Part shown: piece after piece, positions 2,346 through 14,856 of the stretch | Position numbering within the stretch: position 1 is the first letter of the stretch | Layout: each line of letters opens with the position of its first letter | DNA from: Thermoplasmata archaeon | GTDB taxonomy: Archaea; Thermoplasmatota; Thermoplasmata; Lutacidiplasmatales; UBA184 | Assembly (NCBI GenBank): GCA_028864975.1 | Contig: JAGWLG010000007.1 | Span: 1-64,000 of the forward strand | Direction: 5' to 3' | DNA length: 64,000 bases | Position numbers and translations under genes: made by a program | Notes under the pieces: model-generated | Database searches by the model: none | Told to the model about the DNA's origin: nothing | The model's input: only the letters and a program-made list of their open reading frames with translations

Positions 2346-2651
2346 TCACCCCCGAGCGGGTTCACAGGTCCGCATCGGGCACCCGCGCCCCCTCGCGTCC
2401 CACCTGTCCCCCTCCCTGACGCACCCGCAGGGCGTCCTCGCCGCGTCTCCCCCTTCTGCGAACGACTCGAGCGTCACCGCGGGCTTGGGCCATCGGTAGT
2501 GGGGCCCCAGAAGGGCCCGGTGCGCCGGGCAGGTGCACTCGCTGATGTTCCAACCCCCTCCCACCTTCTCGCAGCCACAGGGGGCCCTCTTGGGGGCGCA
2601 GACGCCCCCGCTCGCGGTCCGAAGAACCTCCAGGACGGGCTGGCCCACCAC
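2346..2651 (-). CDS. small Cys-rich protein, hypothetical
   Basis: 101-aa ORF starting at a GTG four bases after the stop of the upstream minus-strand gene, so probably cotranscribed with it. It carries several Cys clusters ('CGCEK', 'CTC', 'CGC', 'CPMRTC') that could bind a metal. Its first residues, 'PVLEVLRTASG', and about 30 nt of DNA closely match the start of the winged-helix fragments at 7.6 and 8.7 kb ('ILEVLRTATG'). After that the sequence diverges. It may be a chimera with a decayed winged helix or a real small zinc protein. No function can be assigned. Confidence 0.35.
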   Translation of the reverse strand: MVGQPVLEVLRTASGGVCAPKRAPCGCEKVGGGWNISECTCPAHRALLGPHYRWPKPAVTLESFAEGGDAARTPCGCVREGDRWDARGRGCPMRTCEPARG

Positions 2652-3551: not shown

Positions 3552-4118
3552 ATGTCCCTCTTCGGGAGGCCCACACCCCCGCCACTGAGCTTCCGCGAGC
3601 GGGAGGCGGAGATCGAGCGTTGCGCGAAGGAGGCGCTCCTCCTGGAGGCGCGCTTCAATCGCCCCATCGCGAAGAACGACCTCTTCTTGAAGCTCCACAT
3701 CCCGTTCGAGCTCCTCGACCGCGTCACTCGGGCTATCTCGAGGGATGTCCGGGTGGACCTCGCACTCCTCGGCTCCTCAGAGCGCGACCGCTTGGAGCGG
3801 GAGAGCCACGACGTGATCGTTCGCGCTCTCGCGGAGCGGGCGAAGCCAATCGAGAAGAGGGGGCTCACGCTGGCCGACGTGGCGGTGCTGAGTCCACCGA
3901 ACCGCTCGTTGGTGGACCTTCAGCGCCTCTTCGGTTACATGCGGGCTGTGCTGGAACTCAAGGAACTCCCTCCCCGCATCGCGATGCCGTCGGAGGTCTC
4001 TCGGCTACTTCCGAGGGCGGCCGCCCTCCCCGCCGATGAACGGACCCCGTTCCGCCTCGTCAGGGACCTCGACGTCGGAATCTACACGGCGAGGCTCGTG
4101 AAGGCGGCCCTGGGGTGA
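3552..4118 (+). CDS. hypothetical protein, helical
   Basis: 188-aa protein, unrecognised. I chose the ATG at 3552 ('MSLFGRPTPPP') rather than the ORF-track start because the upstream part of that frame overlaps the opposite-strand gene and its start region. The protein is rich in charged helices ('REREAEIERCAKEALLLEARF') with no membrane segment or signal peptide. It lies three bases upstream of the next plus-strand gene, suggesting an operon 3552-4122-4904. Confidence 0.55.
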   Translation: MSLFGRPTPPPLSFREREAEIERCAKEALLLEARFNRPIAKNDLFLKLHIPFELLDRVTRAISRDVRVDLALLGSSERDRLERESHDVIVRALAERAKPIEKRGLTLADVAVLSPPNRSLVDLQRLFGYMRAVLELKELPPRIAMPSEVSRLLPRAAALPADERTPFRLVRDLDVGIYTARLVKAALG

Positions 4119-4903: not shown

Positions 4904-5641
4904 GTGGGGCGGCGTCGGGGTGGGTCGGTGAAGGTCACTCCGGAGGCTGACGGGCTGCACCTCGTCGGCGGGCTCTTGTCGAAGAAGGAAAAGGTCGTTC
5001 CCTGGAGCTGGCTCGCGGTGGTCCGCGACGAGGGCGGGCCGCTCTCGAGCCTCCGAATGTTCTACGTCGACCCCGCGGACCCGGGGGACAAGAAGGAGAT
5101 TGAACCCCCGCGAGGGGAGATCGCCGGAATCCTGGGACACTCGAGCTTCCCGCGTGAGCTCGTCTTGCCCGCGACGGCGAAGCGGTTCGGACTGGAGCCT
5201 GGACGCGTGGAGGGGTACGGGCCACCCCTCGGGACCCCATGGCTCGCGGGACCTAAGGTCGGACTCGGCAGGAATAGCCCGGATGACCAGCTGGTGGCCC
5301 TCGTGCTCAAGTCCTTCCCGAAGGTCCTCCAGGGTGGTTTCATCGGAACGACGGATGTCGCTCCGTTCGATCGCGGGGTCGCGTTTCAGAACGGAAGTGA
5401 CAACAACGAAGTGGCCCGTTGGGAGGCCATATCCCCCTCGCGGCTCCCTGCCCCGAACTGTGTCTACTGGATCTCGCTATTCGGACCCGCCGATACGGAC
5501 GAGATGTACGGATTCGCGCTCACCTTGGACCAAGCGCGGGCGCTCGTCTCGCACCCTTCGGCGGCGGTCTGGGACCTCCCTGACACGGTCTACTCCGTGC
5601 TCAACGCGAGCCGACCGGAGAAGCCGCTACGCTCAGGCTGA
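4904..5641 (+). CDS. hypothetical protein
   Basis: 245-aa protein, unrecognised. The GTG at 4928 ('VKVTPEADGLHL') is an alternative start. It looks soluble and beta-rich, with conserved-looking segments 'CVYWISLFGPADTDEMYGF' and 'ALVSHPSAAVWDLPDTVYSVL'. Third gene of the apparent 3552-5641 operon. Its 3' end runs into a decayed, opposite-strand copy of the Cdc6 winged helix, so its C-terminus may have been set by that recombination. Confidence 0.5.
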   Translation: MGRRRGGSVKVTPEADGLHLVGGLLSKKEKVVPWSWLAVVRDEGGPLSSLRMFYVDPADPGDKKEIEPPRGEIAGILGHSSFPRELVLPATAKRFGLEPGRVEGYGPPLGTPWLAGPKVGLGRNSPDDQLVALVLKSFPKVLQGGFIGTTDVAPFDRGVAFQNGSDNNEVARWEAISPSRLPAPNCVYWISLFGPADTDEMYGFALTLDQARALVSHPSAAVWDLPDTVYSVLNASRPEKPLRSG

Positions 5642-5745
5642 TGAGGGTCGAGCTCCCGCCCGCTCCGCCGAGGCGGACCGCGTGGCGGAGGAGGCCCTTG
5701 CTCTCAAACGGGCGATGCGCCATGGGGGACGAAGGACCACGTCGG
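5636..5745 (-). pseudogene. decayed Cdc6-type winged-helix C-terminal fragment
   Basis: Reading the minus strand gives '...FESKGLLRHAVRLGGAGGSSTLISLS'-type sequence, with the core 'GLLRHAVRLGGAGGSST' matching 'GIVRREVRVGGAGGSST' at the end of the Orc1/Cdc6-like gene at 9565 and 'GVVRREVRMGGAGGSS' in the fragment at 8470. No start codon or intact upstream domain is present. The DNA itself is similar ('gagctcccgcccgctcc'), so this is a remnant of the same family. It lies tail-to-tail against the 4904 gene. Confidence 0.6.
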
Positions 5746-5869
5746 GCGGTGTGGCCTTCGAGCCGCACGTCCACCAGGTGGACAGGTGTTCGGGAAGGAC
5801 CCGAGCCTCTCCAGCACAGCTGAAGAGGACGCGAACGGAGATATCCAGGGTCCGCGCTAGCTCTCTCTC

Positions 5870-7258
5870 ATGATGGATGGCCCCCGGCTCCGGACGGGCG
5901 CCGCCGTGGTCGTCGTGGGCGCGCTGATCGTGGCGGGGTTCAGCACACTCCTCTATGGTGAGTGGGTCTCCGCACAACCTGACCCCTGGGCAGAGGTCGT
6001 CGGTAGCGTCAACGTGCAGGGATGGGGAAGTTTCGGGAACGTGGTCTACGACCCTGTGAACCGGCAAGTCTACGTGGACAGCGCTAGGCCCGGCTCCTGG
6101 TACCCCGGACAGAACGTCACCATCTTGAACCCGGCCACAGGGAGGATTGTGGGATCGGTCCCCGCCGGGCCGGAGCCCGCCGCAATGACGGTGGACACGC
6201 GGAACGGAAACGTCCTCGTCGCGGACTCAAGCTCGGCCTACGGCGGCTGGGCCGAACGTTTCAACATCACGGAGCTGAGCGGAAGCAACAACACTCCGCT
6301 CTGGAGCACGCCCCTGGACTTCATCCCCAGTGCACTGGCCTTCGACCCGGTCAACGGGCTCGTTTACGTGGGGGGGTATGGTAATCCTTCGTTCGCGAAC
6401 CTGACGGTCCTGGACCCGGCGACGGGGGAGATCGTAGCCGAGACGCGAGGGGAAGCGAGCGCGGTCGCCGTCGACCCGGCGATGGGGTTGGTCCTCTTCG
6501 CGAACACGACGCGCGGGCCCCCCACGGTCATGGTCATGGACGGGAACACTCAGCGGCTTGTGAAGAATGTCACGACCGGGACCGAACCTTGGGGGTATGC
6601 CTCGCCGTCGATGGCGTACGACCCCCAGACGGGCGAGATTTTCGAATCCGGCGTCTCCCTTTCGAACGTGCGGAGGGCATCCTTCTCGGTCTTCAATGCG
6701 ACCTCGGGGTTTGTCGCGGCCTCGGACGTTCCTCTGCCCGGGGAAGACGGGATAGGAGCGAGCATCGTGTACGATGGACAGAACGGACGACTGTACGCCC
6801 TGGGGTGGGAATGCGGTGGGGGTTCGTCCGGGAGTGGGTGCGTGATCGCGATCGATGGAAGGACGCACGCGATCTTGGGCACGGTACCGGTGGGCTCTGA
6901 ACCCAACAGTATCGCCTTCGACCCCCAGAACGGGGACCTCTACCTCTCCGACTCCGGAGGGGCGAGAGTTTGGTTCGTCTCGACGCAGGCGGCGGCCCCG
7001 CCTCCCCTGACCTCTCTTCCGAACGCTTCGGGGCTCCTCCTGGGACTGGCGTTGGGTGTCGTGCTCGTCGCTGTCGGCGCGCGAGAGATGTGGGCGGGTC
7101 GCCAGGGCGGGGAGCACCGAGTCCCCGAATGGGTCCGTGCCGCCGAGCGGGCGGAAGAGCGTGCGAGCCGGACGCTCTTCGAGAAGCCCTCGACGTGGTT
7201 TTTGATGACGCTCACGGTCCTGGGTGCGATCCTGCTCCTGGCCCTCCTCGCGGGATGA
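5870..7258 (+). CDS. YVTN-type beta-propeller surface protein
   Basis: 462-aa membrane-anchored extracellular protein. A hydrophobic N-terminus ('GAAVVVVGALIVAGFSTLLYG') is followed by repeated blades of the YVTN/NHL type: 'VVYDPVNRQVYVDS', 'AFDPVNGLVYVGG' and 'IAFDPQNGDLYLSDS'. Two C-terminal hydrophobic segments ('GLLLGLALGVVLVAVGA' and 'LMTLTVLGAILLLALLAG') flank a charged loop, so the C-terminus forms a membrane hairpin. Many NxT/S sequons fit a glycosylated surface protein. Family knowledge: such propellers occur in archaeal surface layers and adhesion. ATG codons at 5870 and 5873 are both possible starts. Confidence 0.8.
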   Translation: MMDGPRLRTGAAVVVVGALIVAGFSTLLYGEWVSAQPDPWAEVVGSVNVQGWGSFGNVVYDPVNRQVYVDSARPGSWYPGQNVTILNPATGRIVGSVPAGPEPAAMTVDTRNGNVLVADSSSAYGGWAERFNITELSGSNNTPLWSTPLDFIPSALAFDPVNGLVYVGGYGNPSFANLTVLDPATGEIVAETRGEASAVAVDPAMGLVLFANTTRGPPTVMVMDGNTQRLVKNVTTGTEPWGYASPSMAYDPQTGEIFESGVSLSNVRRASFSVFNATSGFVAASDVPLPGEDGIGASIVYDGQNGRLYALGWECGGGSSGSGCVIAIDGRTHAILGTVPVGSEPNSIAFDPQNGDLYLSDSGGARVWFVSTQAAAPPPLTSLPNASGLLLGLALGVVLVAVGAREMWAGRQGGEHRVPEWVRAAERAEERASRTLFEKPSTWFLMTLTVLGAILLLALLAG

Positions 7259-7354
7259 CCGAGGTCGACCGGTGGTCGGCCTCCATGTAGTCGTCCTGAA
7301 CGCCTAGTTTCCGCCCCCCTTGTCGCCTTTGGAGGGTATGGAGCGCCATCCCAG

Positions 7355-7654
7355 TCATGGGTCACCGGGTTGAGGCCACCGCCTCGCCAGAAAGATCTGC
7401 GTCCCACGTCCCCCTGTTCCACCGACGCGGACTTCACGGGTGACCCTCCCGAACCTTTCGACGCGAACCAGGTGCCGCCACAGGCGGGCCTGGGTCGGGG
7501 CGCGCATCCCCGAAGACGTGCATTCCTCGCCGACGCGGCGGCGGAGCTCCCCCGCCGTGATGCTGCCGGTCGCGGTCCGCAGAACCTCGAGGATGGCCTG
7601 GCCAAAGCCCTCGGCGTTCGGGCCGTGCTTCGTGAGGTTCGGCGGGACCGCCAC
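7355..7654 (-). pseudogene. truncated Cdc6-like winged-helix protein (copy 3)
   Basis: Winged-helix domain homologous to the C-terminus of the Orc1/Cdc6-like protein at 9565: 'ILEVLRTATG...LWRHLVRVERFG...REVRVGGTGG'. Similarity continues in frame upstream of the track's GTG start ('RAEARGGGWHEAEDVAVPP' matches 'RRAEARGASRVEVDDVALPP') until the stop of the SPFH gene, so the 5' part of an ancestral longer gene is missing. It may still be expressed as a stand-alone 99-aa DNA-binding protein through coupling with the upstream SPFH gene. The terminal Gly/Ser motif is partly altered ('GGRGTQ'). Confidence 0.6.
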
Positions 7655-7726
7655 GTCCTCGGCCTCGTGCCAGCCGCCCCCGCGGGCCTCGGCCCGCGGG
7701 GTGTCCTCGGGGGGGGCCGGGGGGGT

Positions 7727-8461
7727 CTATCCGGCCTCTGACGGTAGCGGTGGCCCGGCCCCTTCGAGAAGCTCCGTCGGGACCTTCTCGATCCCCGGGA
7801 CGCGCTCTGGCCCCAGCACCTCGAGGTCGCCGAGATCGACCGACTCCACTTGGACGCCCCACTTCCGGGCCTCCGGGCGGGCGAGGTCCCGCACGCGCTC
7901 ACCGAGCCGCCCCCGGTCCTTGACGACCTCACGGATGGGGGTCCGTTTCAGCTCCTCTTCGAGGCGAGAGGCGACCAGCGCGGCCGTGGCGAGCCGGTAT
8001 TCCTGGACCTTGATTATGGCGGCGACGGGGTCGGCGACCTTGAAGTAGAGCTTCCCCCCGAGGAGGGCGCGGATACCATCGGAGGTCCGGCCCTCGTACT
8101 TCGTGAGTGGTCGCTCTTGCGTCCGCAGGTCCACACGGATGACGTGGGCGAGAGGGTTCACGATGCGGAACCCCGGAGCGACGGCGCCCTGGAACTTCCC
8201 CAGGACGAAGACGAGCCCCGTCTCGTACGGGTGGATCGCCTGCATCCCGTGGAAGAACGTCACGACGAGGAGGAGGGCGAAGAGCCAGGAGAGCACCGCG
8301 AAGGTCGATAGGCTGGGCGTGAGGAGGAGCACCAAGACCCCGAGCGCGAGGAGCATGAGGATCGACACGACGAGGGCGATGGCGCCCCCGCGCCACGTAT
8401 AGGCGGGAGGACCGGACAGGGTCGGGGGAGCCGTCAAAGGGGAAAGGGCTCCCGCGACCAC
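7727..8461 (-). CDS. SPFH/stomatin-like membrane protein
   Basis: I place the start at the GTG at 8461 because the ORF-track extension to 8971 runs through the winged-helix fragment in another frame. The roughly 244-aa product has two N-terminal membrane segments ('AIALVVSILMLLALGVLVLLL' and 'LSWLFALLLVVTFFHGM') and then a band-7/SPFH domain: 'IHPYETGLVFVLGKF', 'APGFRIVNPLAHVIRVDLRTQ', 'FKVADPVAAIIKVQEYR'. Family role: membrane scaffolding and quality control, often paired with NfeD or proteases; none is seen here. It ends shortly after the SPFH domain and lacks a long coiled-coil tail. Confidence 0.75.
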   Translation of the reverse strand: MVAGALSPLTAPPTLSGPPAYTWRGGAIALVVSILMLLALGVLVLLLTPSLSTFAVLSWLFALLLVVTFFHGMQAIHPYETGLVFVLGKFQGAVAPGFRIVNPLAHVIRVDLRTQERPLTKYEGRTSDGIRALLGGKLYFKVADPVAAIIKVQEYRLATAALVASRLEEELKRTPIREVVKDRGRLGERVRDLARPEARKWGVQVESVDLGDLEVLGPERVPGIEKVPTELLEGAGPPLPSEAG

Positions 8462-8469
8462 GTGTCCCT

Positions 8470-8850
8470 CTACGGCGGAGGGGAGACAAAGCCTTGCCGT
8501 CCGCTGGTGAGGCTGACGAGGGCCGAGCTCCCGCCCGCTCCTCCCATCCTGACCTCCCGGCGAACGACACCTTTCCGCTCGAGCCCTACGAGGTGCCGCC
8601 AGAGCCGCGCCTGCGTCGGGGGGCGGAGTCCGAGCGCCGCGCAGCGGGCTTCGACTCGTCGGCGAACTTCCCCGACGGCCAAGGGTCCGTTGGAGTTTCG
8701 AAGGACTTCCAGGATGGTCGCGCCGAACCCCTCGGCGTCGACGCCGTGGCGCGGGACGTGGGGCGGGAGCGCTACGTCGTCGACTTCGACTCGGGAGGCT
8801 CCCCGAGCCTCCGCCCGCCGGCCCGCCTCGCCGAGCAGCTCGCCGACCAT
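8470..8850 (-). pseudogene. truncated Cdc6-like lid/winged-helix protein (copy 2)
   Basis: 126-aa ORF aligning over its whole length with the C-terminal third of the 9565 gene: 'VGELLGEAGRRAEARG' versus 'VGDLLLEAGRRAESRG', then 'LWRHLVGLERKGVVRREVRMGGAGGSS'. Homology extends in frame upstream of the ATG ('LASVAHGWGLS' versus 'LSVARGWGLS'), so this is a 5'-truncated paralogue that lost its ATPase domain rather than a gene that begins here. Its stop lies nine bases before the SPFH start. It could survive as a small DNA-binding protein. Confidence 0.65.
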
Positions 8851-9010
8851 CGAGAGGCCCCAGCCGTGGGCGACGGAGGCGAGGGGACCCCGATCCGAGA
8901 GAACTGACCGAGAGACTGAGGCCCGGGTCCCCGAGCGAGGACCCGTCGGCGGTCTGGAGGACCAGCCGCATGGGTCCGAAAGGCGGGCGATGGCCGCGCC
9001 CTTGAGCCGC

Positions 9011-9562
9011 TCAGGCGAGGGGCAGTGAGGACTTGGGGGAGGTCTTCCACTGCTCGTAACTCTCCTGGAACCGCTGCATGTTTTCGCGGGTCAGGACCGT
9101 CGAACTCGTTGGCATGGTCCTGCTCCCCTTCGGAGGTGCAGGCTCGACCTTCCAGCTCACGAGAGGTGGCAGGAACCCGCCGTGGCGGACCTGCTGTATC
9201 CGCTCGAAAGGTACCTCCACCGCCTCCCGGGGGGCCCTACTGCCCTTGGAGAGCGGGTGGAGCCACACGGTCATCGACCGAGGGCCGAACTCCACTGGAT
9301 CGGCACTTGCCGCTACGAAGGCGGGCGCCATCACGCGGCGCGTGAGCACCGGACCCCCGAGGATGCCGAGAACACTAAGAATTGCCAGGTCCGCCAGCCA
9401 CCCGAGGAGGGGGCTCAGGGGGGGAGTCAGCAGAGGCTCGACTACGCCGGAGAAGAGGACGGGAAGAACCACGAGGAGGAACGCCAGCAATGGAACCCCC
9501 ATGAGGTCCGCCCGGTCAAAGAAGCGGAGCACAATTGGACGAATGTCGTTCGGGTGGGGCAT
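9011..9562 (-). CDS. membrane protein downstream of the Cdc6-like gene
   Basis: 183-aa protein starting at ATG 9562 ('MPHPNDIRPIVLRFF'), two bases after the stop of the Cdc6-like gene, so clearly in its transcript. Two or more membrane segments ('VPLLAFLLVVLPVLFSGVV' and 'LADLAILSVLGILGGPVL') are followed by a cytoplasmic beta-rich region reminiscent of a PH-like domain ('VEVPFERIQQVRHGGFLPPLVSW'); that fold is a guess. Unknown function. The close linkage of a replication-initiator relative and a membrane protein is unusual. Confidence 0.6.
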   Translation of the reverse strand: MPHPNDIRPIVLRFFDRADLMGVPLLAFLLVVLPVLFSGVVEPLLTPPLSPLLGWLADLAILSVLGILGGPVLTRRVMAPAFVAASADPVEFGPRSMTVWLHPLSKGSRAPREAVEVPFERIQQVRHGGFLPPLVSWKVEPAPPKGSRTMPTSSTVLTRENMQRFQESYEQWKTSPKSSLPLA

Positions 9563-9564
9563 GA

Positions 9565-10836
9565 TCAGGCGAACGAATGATTGGCCATGAGAGTTCTGTC
9601 CTCCGAACGGCCTTCGGGAGTGAGCGAGACCTGGGTTGAGCTCCCACCTGCTCCGCCAACGCGGACCTCCCGTCGGACGATGCCCTTCCGTTCCAGGCCG
9701 ACCAAGTGCCGCCAAAGGCGCGCGGGGCTCGGCGCTGAGACCCCCTCGGCATGGCAACGCACTCTCAGGAGACGACCCAGTACTCCGACGGAAAGAGGCC
9801 CGGGAGACGCCCGTAGGGACTCGAGGACGAGGGGATCGAGCGGTCCACCCTCTCGGGCGGCGACCCGAAGGCCTGCCGGGACCCCGACATCCTGAGCTTC
9901 CACTCGGCTTGACCCGCGCGATTCCGCACGGCGCCCGGCCTCGAGAAGGAGGTCCCCTACGGCGGAAAGCCCCCAGCCTCTCGCCACGCTCAGGTCCGCG
10001 AAGGCATGAATGGCCGTGGGGTCCGGCTCTTGCCGGAATGCGAGGTTCGCGCGAACCTGGGTGGCTTGGCAGAGGTCGTGGTGATTGAGGGGGGACAGAC
10101 GGGACCGGACGGCCTCCACGTCCTCGGGAAAGGCATCGCGTTCACCAGCAGCCACCACGAGGAGCGGGGGGAGACCCGCGGCGCCCTCGGGCATCAGGCG
10201 CTCGGGCCGAGCGAGGGGCCGGACCACACGGGCGAGGTCAGCTTTCGCACCAACTTGGTCAAGTAGGAGGATGGCGGGCCGGCCCATCGTCCTCAAGCGC
10301 CGGAGGAAGAGGAGCAGGCCGAACTCGGCCGAGGCTCCTCGGCCGTCGTACGACGGGTCGAGCTCGCGGAAGAGGGCGGTGGCGAGGGACGCAGGCGACC
10401 TACCGCAACCCGAGCCCCCTGCGTCCCGAGCGAGGCCCGTGCCCGAGGGGATGACCCGAGGGGCAGGGCCGGCAACCAGGGCGCTCGGAGTGCGGTGGGT
10501 GGAGGCGTCGACATGGATGACCAGAGGTGCCCCCTTCGCCCCCGGCCGGGTCAGCCGGTCCTTCGCGGTGGCGACAAGGTGGGCGGCCATCGCCGAGGTC
10601 CCCGAGCCCTTCGGGCCGAAGATGGAGACAGCGACGCGTCCCTCGTGGGCCAGGCCCCGAAGGACTCGGGTCTCGACCTCGGAGAGGACCTCGTCGCGGC
10701 CGATGAGGGCGGGCGGCGTCCAGGAGCGCTCGAGGACCTGGAGGTCGCGCCAGAGCCCGGGGGTCGCTTCCTGGGAGACTCCCAGGTTGTGGTCGTTCTC
10801 GGTCTGGGCGTGGCTGATGGTAGGCGTTGCGGACAT
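9565..10836 (-). CDS. Orc1/Cdc6-like protein with degenerate ATPase motifs
   Basis: 423-aa protein with the architecture of archaeal Orc1/Cdc6: an N-terminal entry ('ALIGRDEVLSEVETRVLRGL'), AAA+ core, lid and C-terminal winged helix ('LWRHLVGLERKGIVRREVR'). Known of the family: ATP-dependent origin binding and MCM loading. Walker A reads 'GPKGSGTSA' (residues about 74-82), with Thr where the invariant Lys should be. Walker B reads 'LLLDQ' (about 190-194), with Gln replacing the Glu. The sensor-1 region 'LLVVAAGERD' lacks the usual Asn. ATP hydrolysis is therefore unlikely. It could be an inactive origin- or element-binding paralogue. A hairpin lies directly upstream of the ATG. Confidence 0.75.
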   Translation of the reverse strand: MSATPTISHAQTENDHNLGVSQEATPGLWRDLQVLERSWTPPALIGRDEVLSEVETRVLRGLAHEGRVAVSIFGPKGSGTSAMAAHLVATAKDRLTRPGAKGAPLVIHVDASTHRTPSALVAGPAPRVIPSGTGLARDAGGSGCGRSPASLATALFRELDPSYDGRGASAEFGLLLFLRRLRTMGRPAILLLDQVGAKADLARVVRPLARPERLMPEGAAGLPPLLVVAAGERDAFPEDVEAVRSRLSPLNHHDLCQATQVRANLAFRQEPDPTAIHAFADLSVARGWGLSAVGDLLLEAGRRAESRGSSRVEAQDVGVPAGLRVAAREGGPLDPLVLESLRASPGPLSVGVLGRLLRVRCHAEGVSAPSPARLWRHLVGLERKGIVRREVRVGGAGGSSTQVSLTPEGRSEDRTLMANHSFA

Positions 10837-10837
10837 C

Positions 10838-10864
10838 GGTCCCTCTCACGGAGCGAGAGGGACC
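10838..10864. promoter_or_regulatory. 10-bp-arm inverted repeat abutting the cdc6-like start
   Basis: Perfect inverted repeat 'ggtccctctc'/'gagagggacc' with a 7-nt loop, two bases upstream of the ATG of the Cdc6-like gene. It could be an operator for autoregulation, an RNA hairpin, or part of an initiator-binding site. I see no clear origin recognition box consensus or A/T-rich unwinding element beside it. Confidence 0.45.
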
Positions 10865-10892
10865 GGGGCCTCCGGTGCACAGTCCGAAACGC

Positions 10893-11216
10893 TCAGTCGT
10901 CGTACGCGTTCTCTCTTAGCCTGAGAGTCCAGAGCAGCACGGAATCATCCGGGCGTCCAGGGCATCGTCCGCATCCCAGGGAATCTGGGCAGCTCCCTGT
11001 TCGACAAACCTTGCAGATGGTGAACCGGATTCTCCAATCGCCGACGCGAAGGCGCCGATAACAAGAAAGGGACCCTTTGAGTTGAATGGTGTTTCTGAAC
11101 GGGTCTGCGGCGAAGTCTCCTCGAATCTTTCCCTCAATCCGCTTTCGCTCGCCGACGTCGACCTTGGCGAGGGTGCGGTCGAAAGTCTCGGTAGAGAAAA
11201 CTTGGTAGGCCATCAC
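10893..11216 (-). CDS. RelE/ParE-family toxin with Cys-rich insert
   Basis: 107-aa protein with the RelE-type layout: 'YQVFSTETFDRTLAKV' at the N-terminus, 'NTIQLKGSLSCYRRLRVGDWRIRFTI' in the middle and the closing 'LLWTLRLRENAYDD' strand. Between the last two strands sits an insert with Cys pairs ('CKVC...CPDSLGCGRC') that could bind zinc. Family role: an mRNA interferase or related toxin neutralised by a cognate antitoxin. Its ATG overlaps the stop of the upstream gene by four bases (ATGA), making a bicistronic toxin-antitoxin operon. Confidence 0.75.
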   Translation of the reverse strand: MMAYQVFSTETFDRTLAKVDVGERKRIEGKIRGDFAADPFRNTIQLKGSLSCYRRLRVGDWRIRFTICKVCRTGSCPDSLGCGRCPGRPDDSVLLWTLRLRENAYDD

Positions 11217-11854
11217 CCATCCGAAGGGAGCAACCGCACTCGCCCTCGTTGGATGTCCTCACGAGCTGATGCCAAGTCGGCGGAGGACTCGGGGTCGAGA
11301 AGAATCTCAAACGTTTCGAGCCAGTCCTCACCGATGTTCAAGTGAGTGGCAACCGGGCGGTCAGCGGGAGACAGTAGGCGGACTCCCATAGGTACCGAGT
11401 CTATGGACACCATCTTGTCATCTTGGGGCACCTTCAGGCTGTGGACGAAGTCAACCAGCCTGACACGACTGTAAGCGCCATACTTCCGGGCAACTTGATC
11501 AACGATCTGGGTCAATCCGGAGTTCGCTTCGAAGAACTCCTTAGCCGTCTCAAGGAACTCTCTTCCCCTCGGTGTTACGGAGTGGTCCTCAGTGATAAGC
11601 CCCGAGGCTGCCAGTCGACCCAAATCGGAGTAGACCTGTTGAGACACCGGGCCCAACTTGTCCTTAACGAACGAGTAACGGAATGCCTGGACTCCGTCCT
11701 CGGCACAGCTGCGGTTCACCAGGTACGTCCACTTGTTAGGCTTCACCGCGCCCACCGGGTGATTCTTGGGATTGGCTTCCGCCAGAAGTCGCAGGAGGAA
11801 GATTGAGTCCACGGCAGCAGTAGGGGACGGCTGTGCTCTCAGATTCTCAGGCAT
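11213..11854 (-). CDS. Panacea-like antitoxin
   Basis: 213-aa protein directly upstream of and overlapping the RelE-like toxin. Residues about 15-115 resemble the Panacea/SocA-like domain ('SIFLLRLLAEANPKNH', 'FVKDKLGPVSQQVYSDLGRLAASGLI', 'VTPRGREFLE'), which is known to act as a neutralisation domain in diverse toxin-antitoxin pairs. The C-terminal half is probably the toxin-contacting part. Assignment as antitoxin combines weak domain resemblance with gene order, so the family name is less certain than the role. Confidence 0.6.
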   Translation of the reverse strand: MPENLRAQPSPTAAVDSIFLLRLLAEANPKNHPVGAVKPNKWTYLVNRSCAEDGVQAFRYSFVKDKLGPVSQQVYSDLGRLAASGLITEDHSVTPRGREFLETAKEFFEANSGLTQIVDQVARKYGAYSRVRLVDFVHSLKVPQDDKMVSIDSVPMGVRLLSPADRPVATHLNIGEDWLETFEILLDPESSADLASAREDIQRGRVRLLPSDG

Positions 11855-12263: not shown

Positions 12264-13247
12264 TTGTCCCGCCGTCACTCCTCGACGGCAGAAGCTCCCT
12301 CAACGCTCTTGAGTCCGTGGGTTGTCGACCTCGCGAGCGGGGTAGGAGGAAGAGACTTGCCAAGGTTGCGGGGGGCCGCACGGTCGAAACTTGCCCAGCG
12401 CGCTGAGGTGGTGCTCGACCGGAAGGGGATTCGACTCCTAAACGCGGATGTCCTCAGCGTGGGGCTGGAGCCCTCCAGCGTGGACCTGATCGTCACCTCT
12501 CCCCCCTATGGCGTGGATATCAAGTACGCCACGTTCGCCGACGACCTCCCCTACGAGGCTTACCTCGACTTCACCCGGAAGTGGCTCTCGAGCTGCCTGG
12601 GGTTCCTGAAGTCGGATGGGAGACTCTGTCTCAACCTCCCTCTCGACAAGAACAAAGGGGGTCAGCAGAGCGTCTACTCTGACGTGCTCCAGGTCGCGAA
12701 GACGGCGGGCTGGAAGTACTTCAGCACGATCATCTGGAACGAGCAGAACATCTCCCGTCGGACGGCCTGGGGGTCCTGGCTGAGCGCCTCCGCTCCCTAC
12801 GTGATCGCCCCGGTGGAGGTGGTGGTCCTTCTCTACAAGGGGACCTGGGAGAAGGCCTCGAAGGGAGAGTCCGACGTCGCCCGCGACGACTTCATCGCGT
12901 GGACGAACGGGATGTGGACGTTCGGAGGGGAGACGCGGGATCTGGGTCATCCCGCCCCGTTTCCCATCGAACTCCCCCGTCGCTGCATCACGCTCTTCAG
13001 CTACGTTGGGGACACGGTCCTCGACCCCTTCGCGGGCTCCGGTTCCACCCTCCTCGCCTGCCTCGAGACACGTAGGAGGGGCATCGGCGTCGAGATCTCC
13101 AAGACCTACTGTGACCTAATCAAGAAACGCCTGACCCAGGCGCACCTCTTCGAGCGACGCCTCGACGAGGCTCCGGGAGACCCCGCCAGCGACGTTCAGG
13201 CGGGGCCGAGCTCGTCAGCCCACCGAACGAGGTCCGGGGGGAGCTGA
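12264..13247 (+). CDS. type II DNA methyltransferase, beta class (m4C-type motif)
   Basis: 327-aa DNA methyltransferase. The catalytic motif IV 'VTSPPYG' (near residue 80) precedes the AdoMet-binding motif I 'VLDPFAGSGSTLLACLE' (near 255), the circularly permuted beta-class order. 'TSPPY' is typical of N4-cytosine enzymes. It protects the recognition site of the convergent restriction gene, whose 3' end overlaps this one by 52 bases. The true start may be further in than the ATG at 12264, because the first residues look unconserved. A strong upstream promoter at 12014 may drive it. Confidence 0.85.
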   Translation: MSRRHSSTAEAPSTLLSPWVVDLASGVGGRDLPRLRGAARSKLAQRAEVVLDRKGIRLLNADVLSVGLEPSSVDLIVTSPPYGVDIKYATFADDLPYEAYLDFTRKWLSSCLGFLKSDGRLCLNLPLDKNKGGQQSVYSDVLQVAKTAGWKYFSTIIWNEQNISRRTAWGSWLSASAPYVIAPVEVVVLLYKGTWEKASKGESDVARDDFIAWTNGMWTFGGETRDLGHPAPFPIELPRRCITLFSYVGDTVLDPFAGSGSTLLACLETRRRGIGVEISKTYCDLIKKRLTQAHLFERRLDEAPGDPASDVQAGPSSSAHRTRSGGS

Positions 13248-13939
13248 CGCAGGGGACGAACGATGCCCCCCAGGGTTGTGACCCCATCCCGCGACGGGAT
13301 GTAGTTCTTCCTGAACTCGGCGGCGTCCTCGACGTACAGACCGGCTAGGAAGCCCTCCGCAAGCTTTCTCGCGATGAGCGCCGTTTCCCAGGTCGGCCCC
13401 CCGAGCTCGGACTTCCAGCGACCCTTCGTTGAAGTCCCCGCATCCGGAGTTGCGACCACCACCCGGAGGTTCTTGATAGTCCGGTAGAGAAGACTGTAGA
13501 ACAGCGTCTCCGTCATTCGGGCGTGGAAGCTTGTCTTGCAGCTGATGATGGCCACCGGATAATCGTCCCTTGCGGCGATGAGGTCGATGTCGCCCCAGAC
13601 GCCCAAGTCCGCCTTCGCAAAGTTCCGGCTCACGACGGGAATTTTCAACAGCCGGTAAAGTTCGGGATGCCCTTCTTCGAGGCGCCTTGCCTTCTTCCCA
13701 TCGAGGATCTCGACACCCTCTCTTCCCAGGCGAGAGCGATCGAAGGACTCGAGACACGCCTTGACGTGAAGCTCCCAAGCGCGCCCGGATCTCGAGGCTC
13801 GCGATTGCCGTGCCCGTACCTCGGTAGCGATATCGAACGCGTCGTCCTTCAACGGTCCTAGACAAGGGACAAGCTCTACGAAAGCCCTCCCGTCGTCGCA
13901 CGGCTCGGCCGGACCGGGGAACCCACCTGCCTCGCTCAC
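13196..13939 (-). CDS. type II restriction endonuclease, BsaWI-like
   Basis: 247-aa protein with a PD-(D/E)xK-like core: 'GVWGDIDLIAARDD' followed by 'VAIISCKTSFHARMTETLFYSLLYR'. The 'SCKTS' arrangement is like the BsaWI/BsaBI family of type II enzymes. It is convergent with, and overlaps, the methyltransferase gene, forming a complete two-gene restriction-modification unit. The target site cannot be read from the sequence. The family call is from memory of the motif and is moderate. Confidence 0.65.
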   Translation of the reverse strand: MSEAGGFPGPAEPCDDGRAFVELVPCLGPLKDDAFDIATEVRARQSRASRSGRAWELHVKACLESFDRSRLGREGVEILDGKKARRLEEGHPELYRLLKIPVVSRNFAKADLGVWGDIDLIAARDDYPVAIISCKTSFHARMTETLFYSLLYRTIKNLRVVVATPDAGTSTKGRWKSELGGPTWETALIARKLAEGFLAGLYVEDAAEFRKNYIPSRDGVTTLGGIVRPLRQLPPDLVRWADELGPA

Positions 13940-14002: not shown

Positions 14003-14575
14003 TCAGCTGAGCCCGGCAGAGCGCGCCCCCGCGCACACCGCGCCGAACGCGCACGTCCGGCACTTCCCCGGAGCGGGGTCCATCGCCCCTCGGTAGGGCT
14101 GCCGCCACTCCTCAAGCACACCGAGCACCTCGGCCCGCGCCTCATCGTCCCACCGGACGGGGATCTCCGTCCCGTCGCCGAAGGAGAGGACGCCGAAGGG
14201 CGGTGGGGCGCCGGTCGCTTCCTCCAGGAGCAGGCAGTAGGCGAGCAACTGGATCCGGTGGGAGGGGTAGGGCACCCCGCTTCGCGGCGCCCGGGTCGAT
14301 TTGATCTCGACGGGAACCAGCCGGCCGTCCCGCGAGCGGCGGAGCTCGTCGGGACGGCCTGAGAGGCGATAGCGGGGGGAGGAGAGTGTGCGCATGCCGC
14401 CGCCGAGGGACGGTTGGTCGACCGCGAGGGCGCGGGCGGGGGTGAGGACGGGAGGGTTGAAGAGGCGGTAGAGCGCCCATGCGGCGACGCCGACGAGCCC
14501 CAGGAAGAGCGCCGCGTAGACAACGTCGACCATGTCGACATTGTCGACAAAGTGGGCAATGTCCACTAGAGCCAC
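14003..14575 (-). CDS. Cas4/RecB-like nuclease, membrane-anchored C-terminal half
   Basis: 190-aa protein starting at a GTG inside the end of the upstream ORF (overlap 14566-14575). One N-terminal membrane helix ('VVYAALFLGLVGVAAWALYRLF') precedes a RecB/Cas4 nuclease core: motif II 'LSGRPDEL', motif III 'LVPVEIKSTR' and the helix 'QLLAYCLLLEE'. The C-terminus has the Cas4-type 'CRTCAFGAVC' (C-x2-C-x5-C). The fourth iron-sulfur Cys expected near the N-terminus is in the upstream ORF. No cas1/cas2 or CRISPR array is nearby. Confidence 0.75.
   Translation of the reverse strand: MALVDIAHFVDNVDMVDVVYAALFLGLVGVAAWALYRLFNPPVLTPARALAVDQPSLGGGMRTLSSPRYRLSGRPDELRRSRDGRLVPVEIKSTRAPRSGVPYPSHRIQLLAYCLLLEEATGAPPPFGVLSFGDGTEIPVRWDDEARAEVLGVLEEWRQPYRGAMDPAPGKCRTCAFGAVCAGARSAGLS
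14525..14548. repeat. three tandem 9-bp repeats containing GTCGAC
   Basis: Three copies of the palindrome gtcgac at exact 9-bp spacing, encoding a Val-Asp-x repeat ('VDNVDMVDV') at the start of the Cas4-like C-half. A short in-frame tandem expansion. Confidence 0.7.
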
Positions 14576-14856
14576 CCCAGGACGTAGGCGAGGCCCGCCC
14601 CGAGCGCGAGCGCGACCAGTAGCGCCGCCGCGTACGGCGCTCGCGACGCCTTGACCGGCATCGCGTCGACCGTCTCGATGCGCGCGTGGACCTCCTCCCC
14701 CCTGTAGAACGCCTCGACGGGGGGTCGATATTCCGCCCCCTCGGGGACGTCCTCGGGGTGGCGCTTCCAGTACCAGGCTCGCCTACAGTAGGCGAAGTCG
14801 CCGAGCTCCGAGGCGGTGGCCCAGGGGCCACCGCCGGGCCGGCCGTCCGTCTGCAC
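14566..14856 (-). CDS. Cas4-like N-terminal half, membrane-anchored
   Basis: 96-aa protein whose first 60 residues match the start of Cas4/Dna2-type nucleases: 'ATASELGDFAYCRRAWYWKRH' carries the first conserved Cys, and 'FYRGEEVHARIE' matches the following helix. It then ends in a membrane segment ('AALLVALALGAGLAYVLGWL') and stops. The next ORF overlaps by ten bases and supplies the nuclease core, its own membrane helix and the other three Cys. Inference: the two proteins assemble at the membrane into one nuclease, or a frameshift split a single gene. Confidence 0.7.
   Translation of the reverse strand: MQTDGRPGGGPWATASELGDFAYCRRAWYWKRHPEDVPEGAEYRPPVEAFYRGEEVHARIETVDAMPVKASRAPYAAALLVALALGAGLAYVLGWL

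Follow-up and report, generated by a model that had tools for sequence, protein, structure and literature searches.

The cluster of Orc1/Cdc6-like sequences in the window (the whole 64,000 nucleotides analysed, which form the start of C121, a 125-kb contig in a 3.6-Mb MAG) probably represents the decayed remains of about two mobile, plasmid- or ICE-borne gene copies that were hit by cargo insertions. According to this reading, each orc-like copy would have received a short segment combining cargo, a gene for a membrane or secreted protein, with a foreign orc 3' end. The insertion would have given the upstream gene a new in-frame 3' end, and the original 3' end would have been displaced beyond the cargo and left as a fragment. 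The sequence of events would thus be recombination and cargo insertion at a mobile orc-like gene, by either homologous or site-specific recombination, and then decay. The parent protein is a lineage-specific Orc1/Cdc6 paralogue that has kept the AAA+/lid/winged-helix fold and lost its ATPase residues.

The high GC content of the host genome agrees with the order Lutacidiplasmatales (PMC9287336). Core chromosomal genes (ribosomal proteins, a YchF-like GTPase and an eIF5A-like protein, read from the sequences) are found from about 26 kb on, and the orc-like cluster lies inside an accessory island formed by the first ~24 kb, together with an IS1634 transposase (48-1727), restriction-modification genes and a split Cas4-like pair on the reverse strand (14003-14856), each half of which carries a hydrophobic segment as judged by eye. 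Near the full-length orc-like gene we also find a RelE-like/Panacea gene pair (10893-11854) and, at 12264-13939, genes for an N4/N6 methyltransferase and a BsaWI-type endonuclease that overlap tail-to-tail. The orc-like relics considered in this genome are those returned by our searches, and coverage in the assemblies of some relatives is thin, at ~1-2.

The insertion can be followed directly by comparison with a related genome. On contig C71 of G010, an intact orc-like gene comes after F17, an accessory gene, and F18, and points at F18. The window holds the same F17 (3552-4118) and F18 (4928-5641), both on the forward strand and in the same order, followed by a tail relic at the place of the intact gene; F18 is also found at the edge of contig C1 in G010. 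The DNA match to C71 spans 4926-5705 with 77% identity over 783 bp, continues through F18 and across the junction to reach the 3' end of the orc gene, and breaks off at 5705. It restarts at 7467 (7467-7627, 82.6% identity), only 8 bp further along the G010 gene. With 5706-7466 removed and the flanks joined, identity to the intact relative copy is 75% on each side with one 7-nt gap, as compared to only 52-54% for the tail now joined to 7467-7700. This restored collinearity indicates that a 1.76-kb segment (5706-7466) was inserted between the HLV and GLE codons, and, judged from the alignment, the relic at 5635-5705 and the piece at 7467-7700 are the two halves of one former gene. Both are on the reverse strand: 7467-7700, the upstream half of a split L054-like gene, encodes the lid end and the winged-helix helices, and 5603-5705 is its displaced original 3' end, running tail-to-tail into F18 as in G010.

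The inserted segment consists of a beta-propeller/NHL membrane-protein gene on the forward strand (5870-7258) and a foreign orc-like 3' tail on the reverse strand (7355-7466). This tail is joined in frame and keeps the reading frame open, restoring the 3' end of the target gene, and the original tail has been pushed to 5603-5705. Reading the genes of 5706-7466 and 8879-10040, we recognised no integrase; nor is a complete element known, and no clear target duplication was found at the insertion ends. The earlier note had described C-terminal fragments at 5636, 7355 and 8470. The latter two are indeed lid/winged-helix pieces, recovered by the own-genome search with E=9.6e-37 (8503-8877) and E=1.6e-19 (7385-7699), and both pass the Pfam Cdc6_C cut-off of 25.1 bits, with 30.3 and 25.4 bits in the same order. 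The piece at 5636 is only a tail relic of about 34 codons: its frame reads ESKGLLRHAVRLGGAGGSSTLISLS..., the protein match at 5631-5708 has 65% amino acid identity over 26 residues (E=1.8e-5), and its DNA (71 bp) is 72-76% identical to the other tails. The relic is slightly nearer to the window's own tails than to that of L054, so gene conversion may have blurred it. A count of four separate copies does not hold for 5636 and 7355, since the collinearity with the relative rules out independent copies for these two and makes them halves of one gene. The trace suspected at 2.6 kb is genuine, but internal and tiny (2608-2645, reverse strand, 38 bp). It is 87% identical to the 7355 copy and scores 47 bits, where the best of 100 shuffles reached 36.5. 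What the window displays, at base resolution, is how cargo can enter a mobile gene and an imported 3' end repair the reading frame.

The full-length Orc1/Cdc6-like gene (9565-10836, reverse strand, 423 aa) claimed in the same note is real. The own-genome search returns the gene itself and paralogues on C92 (65% identity) and C51 (48%), the latter being the true chromosomal copy, located outside the window, and the fold is confirmed on the C92 copy. Its Pfam Cdc6_C score of 15 bits falls below the cut-off. Judged by its alignment to C92, the gene is itself a mosaic with a break at ~10035: identity is ~70-85% over most of the stretch up to this point and then falls sharply to ~50%, so that the 5' part is C92-like, and the 3' part, from ~10035 down, is unlike any sampled copy. 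The break score exceeds that of all three control pairs, some of which are also rate-heterogeneous, although to a lesser degree. The gene furthermore contains a 31-codon in-frame insert, AGPAPRVIPSGTGLARDAGGSGCGRSPASLA (10380-10473, reverse strand), that is found in no other copy. In the domain model of the C92 copy the insert maps to the start of an AAA+ helix, and even the full-length copy may therefore not work normally. The stretch 10426-10483 resembles DNA adjoining another plasmid-like gene.

The fragment at 8470-8878 (reverse strand) is an open frame of 126 aa from the ATG at 8850, comprising the lid end and a complete winged-helix fold (AF2 pLDDT about 85-90 over most of the winged helix), and it groups with the C92 and G003:C78 copies. 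The C92-like sequence that is lost after ~10035 in the full-length gene resumes in this fragment, and the simplest reading would be a second event, in which a foreign 3' end and the gene at 9011-9532 were imported into the full-length gene. The fragment is, however, 68% identical to C92, as compared to 68-77% for the 5' part of the full-length gene, and more diverged at third positions (0.48 versus 0.58-0.63). Since this region is usually better conserved and yet is no nearer to C92, the two may not be halves of one gene. The suggestion that insertion or recombination struck the 3' end more than once is supported by one insertion demonstrated through collinearity, between the HLV and GLE codons, and a likely second recombination. 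The fragments do alternate with same-strand cargo genes, an SPFH gene and another membrane-protein gene, as previously described: the SPFH/Band 7 gene (7727-8461, reverse strand), which is divergent, is confirmed by Pfam (PF01145, E=2e-21, 7730-8461), and the membrane-protein gene (9011-9532, reverse strand) is without a Pfam match and sporadic, 2 of 48 other genomes having a relative, of which that in G024 is the best (35%). A modest similarity of 80% over 49 bp links 8884-8931 to L053 7014-7061, each just upstream of an orc fragment; it is possibly a shared junction, or may reflect chance.

The family has the AAA+ base, lid and C-terminal winged helix of the Orc1/Cdc6 superfamily in one chain. 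Its profile matches archaeal Orc1/Cdc6 structures (2V1U, E=7e-23), and a model of the C92 copy (pLDDT 89) matches 2QBY in Foldseek with E=4.5e-17. The ATPase residues are missing: in 34 of 34 distinct copies the Lys of Walker A (GxxxxGK[ST]) is replaced by T, S or I, and the D-E of Walker B, kept as DE by canonical Orc1s in that same alignment, reads DQ, DN or DD. Against TIGR02928 (curated cut-off 181 bits), the window, C51 and L031 copies all fall below the threshold with 29, 19 and 57 bits, and canonical Orc1-type genes that do have GKT/GKS and DE occur separately, on C29 and C119 of the same genome. The paralogue is present in 47 of 49 family genomes, and in all 26 core loci read a Hel308-type helicase gene lies convergent to its chromosomal copy, the two mostly overlapping or nearly so. 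The 'LWRHLV...GGAGGS' motif corresponds to the recognition helix and wing, the best-conserved part of the family. Given that the Walker A Lys and Walker B Glu are lost and the fold is kept, the most likely role is that of an ATP-independent DNA-binding factor: the protein probably binds DNA via its conserved recognition helix and wing and does not hydrolyse ATP.

Extra orc-like copies are dispersed in G000, G001, G003, G010 and G024, and a C-terminal piece in G014 has 99.2% DNA identity to one in G010; C-terminal-only copies recur in other MAGs. Several of the dispersed copies lie near genes of plasmid or ICE type (Prim-Pol, DUF932/TIGR03299, T4SS pilin, the Cas4-like pair), and for C92, as distinct from the window itself, replication and transfer genes were found on the same contig (Prim-Pol, DUF932, T4SS pilin). 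The Cas4-like pair also stands near orc-like genes on C92, G001:C41 and G010:C1, and as a two-ORF nuclease near such genes it recurs at L047 4405-5231, L059 4968-5689 and L055 3978-4747. A further recurrent pair consists of F1, by inspection a small winged-helix-like protein, and F0', a 'GPSxW' protein (L053 7614-9856, L044 3007-4723, L059 14035-14947), neither of which has a match in Pfam or PADLOC. F0' is patchy: 9 of 51 family genomes have it, and its presence goes together with that of dispersed orc copies (Fisher 3e-4). The Cas4-like pair, orc and F1-F0' are repeatedly found in this order, separated by variable genes, which suggests cargo slots on either side of orc. At L044 3360-3701, the second half of an F0' gene has been swapped in frame for about the last 33 orc-like codons, and at L049 1047-3401 an orc-like gene is broken by an IS630-type transposase pair. 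Stretches of 3 and 10 kb with 99.2% and 99.7% identity are shared by L044/L045 and L100/L101, in MAGs of different genera or species, and could reflect either recent transfer or mis-binning. A viral origin was discarded, protein searches of IMG/VR contigs, phage records and PLSDB plasmids having returned no relative, as was a defence system, since orc, F1 and F0' have no PADLOC match above noise.

The dispersed full-length copies also share a feature at their 5' ends. In the window a hairpin, CGGTCCCTCTC-(7)-GAGAGGGACCG (10837-10865, reverse strand), abuts the ATG of the full-length gene, and in the dispersed full-length copies a dyad of the same position and shape lies at or touches the ATG, with compensating base changes. 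Such start-codon dyads were read at L059 8143-8180, L051 2064-2100, L057 6497-6525 and L050 1337-1365. The two arms covary across four sequence versions (GGTCCCTCTC, GGACTTCC, GGACTGCC and GGTCCACCTC), so that the sequence varies but the arms can still pair. Similar dyads (arm of at least 9) occur at 10 of 97 plasmid-like gene starts versus 0 of 108 chromosomal ones (Fisher 4e-4). A dispersed repeat was rejected as their source: in 26 genomes the TCCCTCTC hairpin is found only at orc-like genes, the sole exception being one two-mismatch match in another family. On G003:C20 a distance of 1 kb separates orc from the common dyad upstream of it, and a divergent gene in between starts in a second, different dyad. 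This displacement at the 5' end parallels the way in which the tail was replaced at the 3' end.

Known genomic islands target the 3' ends of conserved genes, and the orc-like 3' end could likewise serve integrative elements as an attachment site, with the frame restored on integration and tandem integrations leaving an array of 3' fragments. The demonstrated insertion, which supplied an open 3' end and pushed the original tail away, would fit, as would the tail-only relics in G010:C46 and G001:C7/G003:C70, which start within the same few codons. Nevertheless, the inserted segments are only 1.1-1.8 kb, no integrase was seen in them, and the other fragments start at different, far earlier codons (283 and 302, and 219-270 elsewhere), and we consider this explanation unlikely. 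Less probable still is a scenario free of mobile elements, in which a chromosomal gene was simply duplicated in tandem and then decayed neutrally. Although the copies do lie side by side on one strand and are in part truncated, the pieces fall in different subclades of the dispersed copies (L054-like and C92-like), the true chromosomal copy lies elsewhere (C51), and the collinearity of the 5' and 3' halves fits insertion rather than duplication. Tree and collinearity already disfavour tandem duplication.

A separate matter is whether the detached winged helices have been retained as small DNA-binding proteins, acting as regulators of the element or as competitors of the full-length protein. 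The open 8470 frame encodes a complete winged helix with recognition helix and wing kept, and in G003:C78, G001:C41 and G010:C46 the F1-F0' pair is immediately preceded by comparable open lid-winged-helix ORFs, although the G001:C41 match contains an in-frame stop, and the 5635 piece is too short for a winged helix. A hand tally gives about 7 C-terminal versus 0 N-terminal fragments (binomial 0.016), a count biased by the tail being the most conserved part and the easiest to detect. The 8470 branch shows a third-position excess, and the fragment branches give no sign of neutrality in dN/dS, but saturation of dS drives the estimates to their bounds, and part of the time covered by these branches precedes truncation, when the gene was still intact. 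The conserved fragment neighbours that the earlier note proposed to look for were not found: the SPFH and membrane-protein cargo is sporadic or divergent, and the pairing of winged helix and SPFH is conserved in no relative, the window SPFH, a divergent extra copy, having only distant relatives (41% identity at most). This also removes SPFH as a conserved partner. We therefore prefer decay of the fragments, and regard a kept function as doubtful. With similar reserve, one could speculate that the ATPase-dead paralogue beside Hel308 is an ATP-independent DNA-binding replication or fork factor, whose plasmid copies swap their DNA-binding 3' end by cargo insertions, leaving proteins reduced to a winged helix that still bind sites of the element, possibly the start-codon dyads. 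An ATPase-dead, Hel308-convergent, family-wide paralogue with a strongly conserved winged helix would constitute a natural separation-of-function case in which to study how initiators act in the absence of ATP.

With the archaeal Orc1/Cdc6 initiators (2V1U, 2QBY, 1FNN, 1W5S) the window family has in common the AAA+ domain, the lid and the C-terminal winged helix, but it differs from them in lacking the Walker A Lys and Walker B Glu, and in scoring only 19-57 bits against TIGR02928. In haloarchaea, multiple orc/cdc6 genes have spread with extrachromosomal elements and transposases (PMC3528665), and the two cases are alike in that mobile or accessory DNA carries additional initiator-type genes beside transposases. 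The haloarchaeal extra genes are, however, described as associated with origins (PMC3528665), whereas the copies analysed here lack the ATPase residues and have 3' fragments interleaved with cargo. Walker motifs, truncated genes and pseudogenes do not turn up in a word search of PMC3528665. The resemblance to WhiP, which acts at oriC3 of Sulfolobus (PMC5333045), is that of a non-canonical, winged-helix initiator that depends on this domain to bind DNA. WhiP is a distant homologue of Cdt1 rather than a remnant of Orc1 (PMC5333045).
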